From positions 1-64,000 of the forward strand of contig JASBRL010000007.1 in the NCBI GenBank assembly GCA_030149475.1: a stretch of 64,000 nucleotides of DNA, written 5' to 3'. Of the stretch, positions 23,525 through 25,521 are shown one piece after another. Position 1 is the first letter of the stretch. Each line of letters begins with the position of its first letter. Made by a program: the position numbers and the translations under genes. The notes under the pieces were generated by a model that was given only the letters and a program-made list of their open reading frames with translations, was not told where the DNA came from and did no database searches. The DNA is from Marinobacter sp. Its GTDB lineage: Bacteria > Pseudomonadota > Gammaproteobacteria > Pseudomonadales > Oleiphilaceae.

Positions 23525-23571
23525 GTGTGCTTCGCTCGAACCTCTTCCGGTTCAAATCCTGTCTCGCTCCG
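23525..23571 (-). repeat. Degenerate fragment of the tRNA-linked 179-bp repeat
   Basis: 47 bp closely resembling the stretch at about 24767-24813 and 24946-24992, with the shared blocks TGTGCTTCG, TCGAACCTCTTCCGG and TTCAAATCC. It is in the same orientation as the full copies but lacks the tRNA 3' end piece. Confidence 0.7.
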
Positions 23572-23580
23572 AAGTATGCG

Positions 23581-23630
23581 AACAAAAAACCCGCGCAAGG
23601 CCAAGCCGTTCACGTAAAGTGGATTCAGGC
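23581..23630 (+). repeat. Left arm of imperfect inverted repeat flanking vapBC
   Basis: The reverse complement of this stretch aligns with 24623-24672 at roughly 80% by eye, sharing ATCCACTTTA, GTGAACGGC, TTGGC/CTGGC and GGTTTTTTGTT. The two arms bracket a ~1-kb segment holding the toxin-antitoxin pair. No transposase is present. Confidence 0.7.
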
Positions 23631-23820
23631 AAGGGGGCCGTGCTACAAAGGTACCAATTCTGTGCAGCCATACAGTGTTGGTGCCTTTTCCCAATAGAAA
23701 GTTATCTTTCCAGATCTCCCGCTTGCCGGCCATGAACATCTCGGTATGGCCGAAACCGAGGCGCTTAAACCCGACAGGAAAACATGAGTCAGCGCTGGCT
23801 ATTTTTTTGCCTAATTGGTA

Positions 23821-23837
23821 CCTTACCTATAGTAAGG
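23821..23837. promoter_or_regulatory. vapB operator palindrome overlapping the -10
   Basis: CCTTAC-CTATA-GTAAGG is a perfect 6-bp inverted repeat. Its centre contains TATAGT (23828-23833), a good -10, with a T-rich -35 region (TTTTGC) about 17 bp upstream. This layout fits autorepression by the antitoxin dimer or the toxin-antitoxin complex, as in other VapB/AbrB-type modules. Confidence 0.6.
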
Positions 23838-23860
23838 ATTTCGATAAGAGGAAAGGTGAA

Positions 23861-24094
23861 ATGACTACAGCAACGATTACCAGTAAAGGACAAATTACGA
23901 TCCCGGCTAACGTCCGCACCGACATGAAGGTTGGCCCTGGAGATCGAGTGGAGTTTGTGAAAGTGGCGGAAGGTCACTGGGAAGTACTTGCCGCTGTTGA
24001 GGATGTTAGTCGGCTGAAGGGAATGATTACGCCTACCCGGATCGTCAGCATAGAGGAAATGGACTCAGCGATCCGGCAAAGGGCGGGTCTATGA
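23861..24094 (+). CDS. vapB: Antitoxin, AbrB/MazE-SpoVT type (VapB-like)
   Basis: 77 aa. The N-terminus TTATITSKGQITIPANVRTDMKVGPGDRVEF is a swapped-hairpin AbrB DNA-binding domain (~1-45). The C-terminal part (LKGMITPTRIVSIEEMDSAIRQRAG) is the usual toxin-binding tail. I chose the start at 23861 for the strong AGGAAAGG ribosome-binding site and the conserved family start; upstream in-frame ATGs lack support. Its stop overlaps the toxin ATG by 4 bp, giving tight translational coupling. Base composition is more A/T-rich than neighbouring genes, consistent with acquisition. Confidence 0.9.
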   Translation: MTTATITSKGQITIPANVRTDMKVGPGDRVEFVKVAEGHWEVLAAVEDVSRLKGMITPTRIVSIEEMDSAIRQRAGL

Positions 24095-24513
24095 TTGGGC
24101 TGGATACCAATGTTCTCGTGCGCTACCTAACCCAGGACGACCCAGGTCAAGCGGCTATTACTAACAGGCTAGTTGAGGAGCGGTTGACCTCGCGCAATCC
24201 AGGCTTCGTTACATCGATTGTGCTGGTTGAGGTTATCTGGGTTTTGGAGACGTGCTACCAGCAACCGAAAAATGCCATTCAAAATGTTGTCAACGCACTA
24301 TTGACCACCAAACAGTTGATGATCGACGAAGCCGATTTGGTGTATCTGGCGCTCAAGCGGTTCTCAACCGGGAACGCCGATTTTAGCGATGCACTCATAA
24401 CTGTTATTTGCGAAAGCCGTGGTTGCACCTCGACAGTGAGCTTTGACAAAAAAGCAGGCTCAGTAGGGATGATTGATATAAATGATGCAGGCAAGAGCGG
24501 TGGCAAATCCTGA
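24091..24513 (+). CDS. vapC: PIN-domain toxin ribonuclease (VapC-like)
   Basis: 140 aa PIN fold with the expected acidic residues: D5 in GLDTNVLVRYL, E47 in LVEVIWVLE, D100 in ADFSDALI and D119 in TVSFDKKA. VapC toxins cleave specific RNAs (tRNA or rRNA); the target here is unknown. It overlaps the antitoxin by an ATGA. Two terminator-like hairpins follow, so the pair forms a closed bicistronic unit. Intact catalytic residues argue for an active module. Confidence 0.9.
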   Translation: MIGLDTNVLVRYLTQDDPGQAAITNRLVEERLTSRNPGFVTSIVLVEVIWVLETCYQQPKNAIQNVVNALLTTKQLMIDEADLVYLALKRFSTGNADFSDALITVICESRGCTSTVSFDKKAGSVGMIDINDAGKSGGKS

Positions 24514-24534
24514 TCCAGCTAATGGCATTACCAT

Positions 24535-24556
24535 GCAGGGGTTTTTCCTGCTTTTT
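24535..24556 (+). terminator. Terminator after vapC
   Basis: GCAGG pairs with CCTGC around a short loop and is followed directly by TTTTT. It is 21 bp after the vapC stop. Confidence 0.55.
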
Positions 24557-24571
24557 GTGATCAGATGTCGA

Positions 24572-24602
24572 AAAGGGCCGCTGGGAAATCCAGCGGCCCT
24601 TT
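24572..24602. terminator. Strong bidirectional terminator
   Basis: A 13-bp perfect stem (AAAGGGCCGCTGG with CCAGCGGCCCTTT) around a 5-nt loop, with A-rich 5' and T-rich 3' ends, so it can work from both strands. It would stop vapBC from the left and, from the right, minus-strand transcripts reading out of the tRNA-Arg repeat region. Confidence 0.85.
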
Positions 24603-24622
24603 CTACTAACCGACTGGGCCAA

Positions 24623-24672
24623 GCCAGATCCACTTTAAGTGAACGGCCTGGCACAAGGCGAGGTTTTTTGTT
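24623..24672 (+). repeat. Right arm of imperfect inverted repeat flanking vapBC
   Basis: Inverted counterpart of 23581-23630. It contains the small palindrome CACTTTAAGTG and ends in a T-run. It lies directly beside the first 179-bp tRNA-linked repeat, just as the left arm lies beside the degenerate fragment. Confidence 0.7.
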
Positions 24673-24678
24673 TGATAG

Positions 24679-24857
24679 GGCGCGGCTGGGAGGATTATTC
24701 GGGCTTCGCCCTCACCCCTCCGGGGCCGTCGTCATGACATTCCGACGTTCCTCAGCACACGTGGCGTGCTTCGGTCGAACCTCTTCCGGTTCAAATCCCG
24801 TCTGACACCAGCGTAAGTCAGTATCAACGGGTTTGCCAAAGCAGGTTCTTCAATAAT
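24679..24857 (-). repeat. 179-bp tRNA-linked repeat, copy A
   Basis: Tandem unit of exactly 179 bp (copy starts 24679, 24858, and the tRNA end at 25037). Read on the minus strand, each unit ends with about 18-21 nt identical to the 3' end of the neighbouring tRNA-Arg, including the encoded CCA. Copies A and B differ at only a few positions by eye. Confidence 0.9.
24692..24814 (-). ncRNA. Candidate rtT-like RNA, copy A
   Basis: The non-tRNA part of the repeat reads, on the minus strand, from GCTGGTGTCAGACGG to GAATAATCC and is rich in short pairing arms (GGCCCC/GGGG, GGGCGAAGCCC). Its position behind a tRNA in tRNA-end-bearing repeats is the arrangement of rtT RNA in the E. coli tyrT operon. 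Transcription and processing are inferred. Confidence 0.5.
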
Positions 24858-25036
24858 GGCGCGGCTGGGAGGATTATTCGGGCTTCGCCCTCACCCCTCC
24901 GGGGCCGTCGTCATTACATTCCGACGTTCCTCAGCACACGTGGTGTGCTTCGGTCGAACCTCTTTCGGTTCAAATCCCGTCTGACACCAGCGTAAGTCAG
25001 TATCAACGGGTTTGCCAAAGCAGGTTCTTGAATAAT
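24858..25036 (-). repeat. 179-bp tRNA-linked repeat, copy B
   Basis: Second unit, directly next to tRNA-Arg, with the same period and the same tRNA 3'-end piece as copy A. A single transcript from the tRNA operon reading leftwards would pass tRNA-Ser, tRNA-Arg, copy B and copy A before meeting the terminator at 24572-24602. Confidence 0.9.
24871..24993 (-). ncRNA. Candidate rtT-like RNA, copy B
   Basis: Equivalent of the copy A candidate, offset by exactly 179 bp. Processing at the pseudo-tRNA 3' ends could release an RNA of about 150-180 nt. Not verified; a covariance search for the RtT family would decide. Confidence 0.5.
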
Positions 25037-25112
25037 GGCGCGGCTGGGAGGATTCGAACCTCCGACCGCTCGGTTCGTAGCCGAGTACTCTATCCAGCTG
25101 AGCTACAGCCGC
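25036..25112 (-). tRNA. tRNA-Arg (anticodon ACG)
   Basis: 77 nt on the minus strand. Acceptor arm GCGGCTG/CAGCCGC, anticodon stem CTCGG/CCGAG with loop CTACGAA (anticodon ACG, read as ICG), T arm GGAGG-TTCGAAT-CCTCC, discriminator G and encoded CCA. It pairs with tRNA-Ser 59 bp upstream and with csrA further upstream, a gammaproteobacterial order (argV/serV near csrA in E. coli). Confidence 0.97.
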
Positions 25113-25169
25113 GCATCAGATCAAGTGGCTGGTCGCTACGCCAACCGGTCCATTTTCCAGTGTTGGAAA

Positions 25170-25262
<93 letters not shown>

Positions 25263-25277
25263 GTGACAACGGCGCGT

Positions 25278-25283
25278 ATACTA
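25278..25283 (-). promoter_or_regulatory. Candidate -10 of the tRNA-Ser/tRNA-Arg operon
   Basis: The minus strand reads TAGTAT followed by a GC-rich discriminator (ACGCGCCG), typical of stringently controlled stable-RNA promoters, about 15 bp before the tRNA. The -35 is not clear. Confidence 0.45.
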
Positions 25284-25480
25284 CCATAAATTTTCTGTTT
25301 TCATAGGGTTGACCCGGCTTTTTCTTTCCACCGAAGGGAATCGCTGACAGTAACAATCAGTCGGCATGGAGACCATATTGTCTGAACAGGCCTCCCGCCC
25401 ACGAAAGCGGCGGCATATTCGGGTTGTACTCAGCCGGAAAAACGGACGGAAACTCTGCTGGATGGACCTGTCATGGCAGT

Positions 25481-25513
25481 AAAAAGCCGCCTGGATTGAA
25501 CCTCAAGCGGCTT
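25481..25513 (-). terminator. Rho-independent terminator of csrA
   Basis: On the minus strand AAGCCGC pairs with GCGGCTT, with an inner TTGA/TCAA pairing, followed by TTTTA. It lies 9-41 bp after the csrA stop and separates csrA from the tRNA operon. Confidence 0.75.
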
Positions 25514-25521
25514 CGGTTTGC

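Follow-up and report, generated by a model that had tools for sequence, protein, structure and literature searches.

Tandem tRNA-linked repeats behind a tRNA-Arg gene in Marinobacter and the hairpin core that they share with other repeats

The array and its setting

The window (the whole 64,000-nucleotide stretch of a Marinobacter sp. contig that we analyzed) carries on its minus strand, in this order, csrA (25722-25522), a tRNA-Ser gene with anticodon GCT (25172..25262), a tRNA-Arg gene with anticodon ACG (25036..25112), and two repeat units. Both tRNA genes were recognized by ARAGORN and by the Rfam tRNA model; tRNA-Ser would be the upstream gene of a presumed transcript, and tRNA-Arg is the RNA gene to which the units are cognate. 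A first-pass annotation had described the units as standing in tandem with a period of 179, each closing with the 3′ end of tRNA-Arg. This is borne out by the letters and by a scan of offsets 150-209, in which the array matched itself at more than 40% at offset 179 only. The units differ at four positions in 197 aligned nucleotides, all four within the 179-nt units, and two 143-nt stretches gave folding z-scores of -2.87 and -1.83.

Each unit consists, in order and on the minus strand, of an inverted copy of the T-loop (GGATTTGAACC at 24967..24977 in unit 1; 24788..24798 in unit 2), a spacer, the 5′ strand of the T-arm (GAGGTTCGA; 24954..24962 and 24775..24783), a hairpin core of 79 nt that runs from C to GAATA (24875..24953 and 24696..24774), and the tail of tRNA-Arg (24857..24874 and 24679..24695). 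The T-arm strand and the inverted T-loop copy had been missed in the earlier reading, which did assign to each unit a tRNA tail with CCA. That tail is complete in unit 1, whose 3′ end is ATCCTCCCAGCCGCGCCA (24874-24857; 18 letters, or 19 counting the A of GAATA), but not in unit 2, which ends in ATCCTCCCAGCCGCGCC (24695-24679; 17 or 18 letters) and lacks the final A. The last hairpin of the core (24886-24895 and its equivalent in unit 2) is flanked by TGA and GAATA, an arrangement reminiscent of kink-turns or tandem G-A motifs; the available text of PMC7657543 describes a tandem GA motif for RtT RNA.

The hairpin at 24572-24602 had been taken for a strong terminator closing the transcript. It is a perfect 13-bp inverted repeat (no strand assigned), but it was not among the calls of the terminator scan for either strand, and it belongs to a later insertion. 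The inserted element (23584..24668; likewise without a strand), recognized by its inverted repeats and gene content, carries a MazE/AbrB-type and PIN gene pair (VapBC-like, toxin-antitoxin) and is bordered by imperfect inverted repeats of 41 nt (23584-23624 and 24628-24668; 78%). Its end motif occurs in the genome at both ends of the insert and once more with two mismatches (G000:C28). By eye, the sequences flanking the insert look like the two halves of the terminator found after the array in two other loci (L005 and L008; the aligner joined the left side only), and from these letters the insert seems to split the array's own terminator. Beyond the insert lies a 38-nt remnant of the left-arm side of a third unit (23527..23564, minus strand; blastn, 95% identity, E 6.3e-10).

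Kinship with rtT and the hairpin core

The locus had been likened to the rtT/tyrT locus of Escherichia coli, with a covariance search against the RtT family proposed as a check. The likeness holds at the level of letters, and the Rfam RtT model (RF00391) matches both units over its full length and in register, but at scores (19.0 and 16.1 bits) far under the gathering score of 45 bits. The units are therefore not classed as Rfam members of RtT. The same model gave 40.2 bits for a further copy in this genome, located after tRNA-Ser (GGA), and 133-138 bits for the four tyrT units of E. coli K-12. The repeat spacing of ~178 stated for tyrT proved correct (starts 1567, 1389, and 1211 in K-12, locus L024; 178). 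Window and tyrT units have the same order of motifs, namely GGTTCGA, hairpins, GAACGT..ACGGCCC..GGGTGAGG..CGAATA, and the tRNA tail, and the window letters equal those of the unit intervening between tyrT and tyrV at GGTTCGA, GAACGT, ACGGCCC, GGGTGAGG, and CGAATAATCC.

The array does sit on a different tRNA in another lineage, as the first-pass annotation had stressed, but the tRNA-Arg operon beside csrA in E. coli E69 has such units too. At this syntenic locus (csrA-serV-argVYZQ) two units with a tRNA-Arg tail scored 31.1 and 25.7 bits with the RtT model, and a unit behind tRNA-Pro in the same strain scored 99.8 bits. Because the E69 arg units are also below the cut-off, the absence of a match at the curated threshold does not refute kinship. 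A BLAST search of the array against E. coli genomes gave no match, and the kinship appears only with a model of the core. Sub-threshold matches to another family, AaHKsRNA22 (RF02902), overlap the core, and this family may be a relative. From the published record, as far as the available text goes, RtT-family RNAs also lie near tRNA-Asn and tRNA-Lys, with Northern signals (PMC4986893), and rtT resembles repeats upstream of gatY, rbfA, and cvpA that were there called BIMEs (PMC2965389).

The core, ~67-85 nt long and covarying, lies inside the T-loop, as is evident from the T-arm 5′ strand that precedes it and the tRNA 3′ tail that comes after; we take the insertion point to be between tRNA positions 58 and 59 in the standard numbering. 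Covariation in the core was 0.266, as compared with 0.084 for shuffled and 0.02-0.10 for slid alignments, and double changes were seen in 8 of 14 core pairs in an alignment that includes the E. coli tyrT units. From the alignment that gave the covariation value we derived a covariance model of 44 sequences, R1. It matches unit 1 at 62.7 bits (24875-24929), a match that is there by construction since the model contains this unit, and unit 2 at 62.3 bits (24696-24750). R1 found nine matches in the genome at E<=0.1 and eight at E<=0.001, comprising the array units and further copies, and so a chance origin of the array is excluded. The exact period and near-identical units are what plain tandem duplication of the tRNA 3′ flank, with no conserved element, would yield, and such duplication still explains copy number. 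As a full account it is refuted, however, because the core covaries and is common to other tRNAs and genera; we give this alternative practically no weight.

R1 matched 90 of 276 sampled Gammaproteobacteria, representing 79 of 216 genera (the genome of the window counted), and 60 of 100 Marinobacter genomes, the other 40 being without a match at E<=0.001. A comparison of copy number among relatives, another proposed check, showed the repeat to be present in related Marinobacter loci: the 18 loci fetched contained 25 R1 cores, with 0 to 3 per locus and none in L023. The share of loci with at least one core (17 of 18) is overstated, since similarity to the array was the criterion for fetching loci, and contig ends truncate some of them. 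A pattern scan of genome contigs returned 118 matches in 108 stretches, from taxa that include Enterobacteriaceae, Marinobacter, Alloalcanivorax, Aestuariibacter, Ectothiorhodospiraceae, Sedimenticola, and Mariprofundus. The end of the core was recognized in 90 of these matches and not in 28; eight loci among the 28 (L029, L034, L038, L056, L062, L080, L099, and L122) were judged by eye to be chance matches in coding DNA. A same-strand tRNA ended no more than 125 nt upstream in 54 of the 118 matches, and none lay upstream within the fetched piece in 53, partly owing to contig or piece ends. Among the 89 other genomes with R1 matches we examined 29 loci (L154-L182), which were the best scorers and hence not a random sample: 18 had a same-strand tRNA or tmRNA ending no more than 125 nt upstream, two sat no more than 100 nt before a tRNA or tmRNA, and the remaining nine, inspected by eye, comprised four with a tRNA-like tail close to the start of a contig, two with such a tail and no tRNA gene in the piece, and three with neither. 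CGA or TGA preceded 80 of 85 parsed cores, a figure that is partly by construction, the core start having been chosen by motif.

These properties are those of the tRNA-linked repeats (TLRs) of E. coli, a class that includes rtT and RrA, RrB, and RrF, comprises 22 genes at ten loci in K-12, has been described since 1978, and whose members "thus far have no known function" (PMC8144298, in the text available). The window units lie directly downstream of tRNA-Ser and tRNA-Arg, end in the terminal letters of the RNA gene just upstream (18 or 19 in unit 1 and 17 or 18 in unit 2, the class norm being 18-19 bp), and join the tyrT units in a single alignment and model of the core. We are nearly certain that they are TLRs.

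Host-gene arms and the fate of a presumed transcript

A test of the tails covered 55 elements with a tRNA upstream. Compared with the tails of other amino acids' tRNAs, the cognate tail was the best match in 48, tied in one, and was worse in six; at least 18 of 19 tail letters were identical in 38. Among the six are pseudo-tRNA-Arg copies behind tRNA-Ser, a Tyr/Asp array end, and locus L070, in which the core end was misplaced by the regex. Cognate tails were found for Tyr, Ser, Glu, Arg, Gln, Met, and Pro tRNAs, and the sole Asp case was mismatched. The left arm, for its part, resembles the inverted T-arm of the cognate RNA: across 78 distinct linkers of 80, the mean score was 12.85, whereas other kinds of RNA averaged 8.12, the direct orientation 6.94, and shuffled sequence 6.23, and 55 of the 78 beat all 100 shuffles. 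In the window itself (row L146) the inverted arm is not cognate-specific (score 9, mean 9.3 for other RNAs, best of 100 shuffles 8). Three linkers followed tmRNA genes, as identified by ARAGORN, and only in L180 was the inverted arm found. There the tmRNA gene occupies 1037-1397 and the core 1501-1556, 104 nt downstream, and alongside the core the tmRNA 3′ end is copied in inverted orientation.

How might such units be expressed? The terminator scan called no terminator-like site between tRNA-Arg and the units, and the promoter scan no minus-strand promoter-like site in 24400-25520. The units would be transcribed together with tRNA-Ser and tRNA-Arg; processing at the copied tails would then free from each unit one RNA of ~160-180 nt, in the manner of RttR and RrB in E. 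coli; and copy number would shift by exchange between tandem units. By analogy with these RNAs, processed RNA from the units is likely, and one small RNA per repeat, as first suggested, is plausible. RttR is annotated at 171 nt. In the accessible text, a 173-nt form of RrB was mapped with its end near the copied tail and RNase E was suggested (PMC8144298), and RrA, RrB, RrF, and RtT RNAs were detected as RNAs (PMC8144298, PMC4986893). The explanation that we favor, and hold as a whole with considerable though incomplete confidence, is that the units are TLRs homologous to the rtT repeats of tyrT, that they are transcribed with the two tRNAs and processed, and that their number changes by exchange. 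Efficient transcription is not general to such elements, because 37 of 79 are positioned behind a terminator-like hairpin; read-through of the terminator has been reported for RrB (PMC8144298, in the part available).

The unit RNAs may be by-products. Alternatively, they could form a functional regulatory RNA array kept by selection, for example as a CsrA sponge or by acting as a decoy when tRNA 3′ ends are processed. In vitro, RrB binds both CsrA and Hfq (PMC8144298, same text), the units adjoin csrA, and both window cores display a GGA loop on hairpin 3. Yet such a loop is rare, being present in at most 9 of 85 parsed cores; deletion or overexpression of Rr RNAs was of modest effect, and a starvation phenotype once ascribed to rtT was retracted (both from the available text of PMC8144298); and, as noted, copies vary from 0 to 3 among the 18 Marinobacter loci and 40 of 100 Marinobacter genomes are without a match. 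We consider a selected regulatory array unlikely. A comparison of G-U with A-C pairs, made to distinguish RNA from DNA as the folded form, found few G-U pairs in the core stems and a strand bias that varies between hairpins (sense G-U versus A-C: 3/0 for hairpin 1, 6/0 for hairpin 2, and 0/13 for hairpin 4); like the frequent terminator-like hairpins, this counts somewhat against a general RNA role.

Settings beyond the T-loop and relation to known repeats

The core is not confined to the T-loop. In 11 pattern-scan loci it occupies the D-loop of a tRNA-Ser-like sequence of which just a 5′ portion is copied, and in the genome of the window a D-loop form stands before and a T-loop form behind a single tRNA-Ser. 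Near-complete tRNA-Arg-like copies lie upstream of the intact tRNA-Arg in L005, L011, and L017 and have in common a 15-nt D-loop insert, CCCGGAGCGCCGGCC; in L005 and L017 the core is also present in the T-loop of those copies. Three loci (L119, L121, and L057) contain cores without any tRNA in the piece, the latter two in apparent intergenic repeats of Aestuariibacter. Four Enterobacteriaceae genomes had 8, 12, 18, and 21 R1 matches at E<=0.05, and the 30 of these 59 that we examined included units behind tRNA-Tyr, tRNA-Pro, and tRNA-Arg, 5S tail copies, ERIC-like repeats, and tandem cores. In L266 and L270 cores repeat directly one after another every 74 nt, and no RNA-gene tail accompanies them. 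In the rrnB T1-T2 spacer of K-12 the core comes after GAGTAGGA and before AACTGCCAGGCATCAAAT, the latter a 5S tail.

ERIC-like repeats carry the core at two positions, and ERICs are able to hold inserts of ~70 bp. At dxs-yajO, E. coli has three alleles: no ERIC (ESM1.4), ERIC alone (BL21), and ERIC with core (strain 104), the host repeat here and at like sites being, we take it from its sequence, ERIC. AACGA precedes the core in the filled allele; at its other junction there is a difference of 2 nt. Of 5426 E. coli genomes, 740 had a match to the ERIC insert alone, and coverage reached at least 80% in 157 of the 740.

tRNA 3′ ends are common sites of integration, and the units do end in one; they could in principle be attachment-site remnants, that is, tRNA 3′ copies left by integrative elements using tRNA-Arg as attB. 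This is very improbable, because every tail read here is accompanied by one and the same core, which is also found in ERIC, 5S tail copies, and D-loops.

Comparison of sequences points to the spread of a single small, folded DNA segment, possibly a mobile one, to the ends of numerous genes for tRNAs and other RNAs; we judge the mobility of the core to be about an even question. More specifically, TLRs, RtT RNAs, the rrnB T1-T2 spacer, and ERIC inserts could all be copies of one mobile, protein-free hairpin cassette of ~67-85 nt that inserts after GA in stable-RNA loops (T-loop, D-loop, tmRNA, and 5S) and in ERIC, in Gammaproteobacteria and Zetaproteobacteria. It would be re-tailored to the host RNA, because copies at RNA genes also carry the direct and inverted 3′ end of the host gene. 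This proposal is tentative, and we lean slightly against it. For the window, a mobile core inserting after GA would make the transcripts incidental and the array a landing site that was duplicated in tandem, which we regard as a serious possibility falling a little short of probable. This is compatible with the identity of the units as TLRs and differs on their purpose. The presence of the same core in ERIC-like repeats (at two positions), in 5S tail copies, and in self-tandems argues for mobility, as do the three dxs-yajO alleles and the D-loop as well as T-loop settings. Against it, the alleles could also reflect loss, with a junction that is 2 nt different; the cognate arms are unexplained by insertion alone; and ready-made palindromes without the core, sought with one strict pattern, were found in 0 of 276 genomes.

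Nor was a mobilizer found. A passive element of a REP/RAYT or IS200-605 system would be expected to have hairpins at its ends, a short target on one side, no target duplication, and linkage to a Y1 transposase gene. The core has hairpins at both ends, and the CGA or TGA before 80 of 85 parsed cores could be such a target, though the core start was chosen by motif and the one allelic site has the 2-nt junction difference. The Y1 transposase (PF01797) was matched in 18 of 18 core-bearing and 6 of 19 core-negative genomes (5 over the cut-off), the genomes being hand-picked and of differing sizes. As a mobilizer it failed for want of linkage: only 1 of 30 fetched Y1 loci (L188) had a strong core match within 1.5 kb, and three had weaker ones (E 0.04-0.95).

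The TLR class is known, and what is added here is a TLR array on tRNA-Arg in Marinobacter. In the accessible portions of the literature, mainly open-licence papers with few older ones, we found no link between TLRs, Rr RNAs, and ERIC inserts, no mention of the T-loop as the insertion point of TLRs, and no TLRs beyond Enterobacterales and Pasteurellaceae. Our comparison assigns a single core to TLR/rtT units, Rr small RNAs, ERIC inserts, and tRNA-tail repeats from well beyond Enterobacterales, and with this common core and an allelic empty or filled site in E. coli, the origin of TLRs becomes testable. The rrnB dual terminator of many plasmids (PMC8144298, in the text available) contains the core, which is of relevance to vectors.

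Set beside RtT RNA of tyrT, the window units are alike in the full-length, in-register match, the motif order, the tRNA tail, and a period of 178 or 179 nt, and unlike in their sub-cut-off scores and in having tRNA-Arg in place of tRNA-Tyr. RrA, RrB, and RrF, which derive from rrn T1-T2 regions (PMC8144298, partial text), share with them the core, joined to a 5S tail in K-12 rrnB and at a site of the same kind that R1 finds in E. coli E69 (L269), but their host gene is 5S rRNA and they are positioned behind a terminator. ERIC repeats with an insert hold the same core, as 75-76 nt placed after GA; unlike the window units they have no RNA-gene tail, and the target is an intergenic repeat. Finally, the window array differs from E. 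coli TLRs in genus, in the length of its core (79 nt versus 68 in tyrT), and in being cut off from its old terminator by an inserted element, whereas it is like them in its place in a tRNA operon, in the presence of one or more units, in the 18-19 bp of RNA-gene 3′ end, and in the common core.
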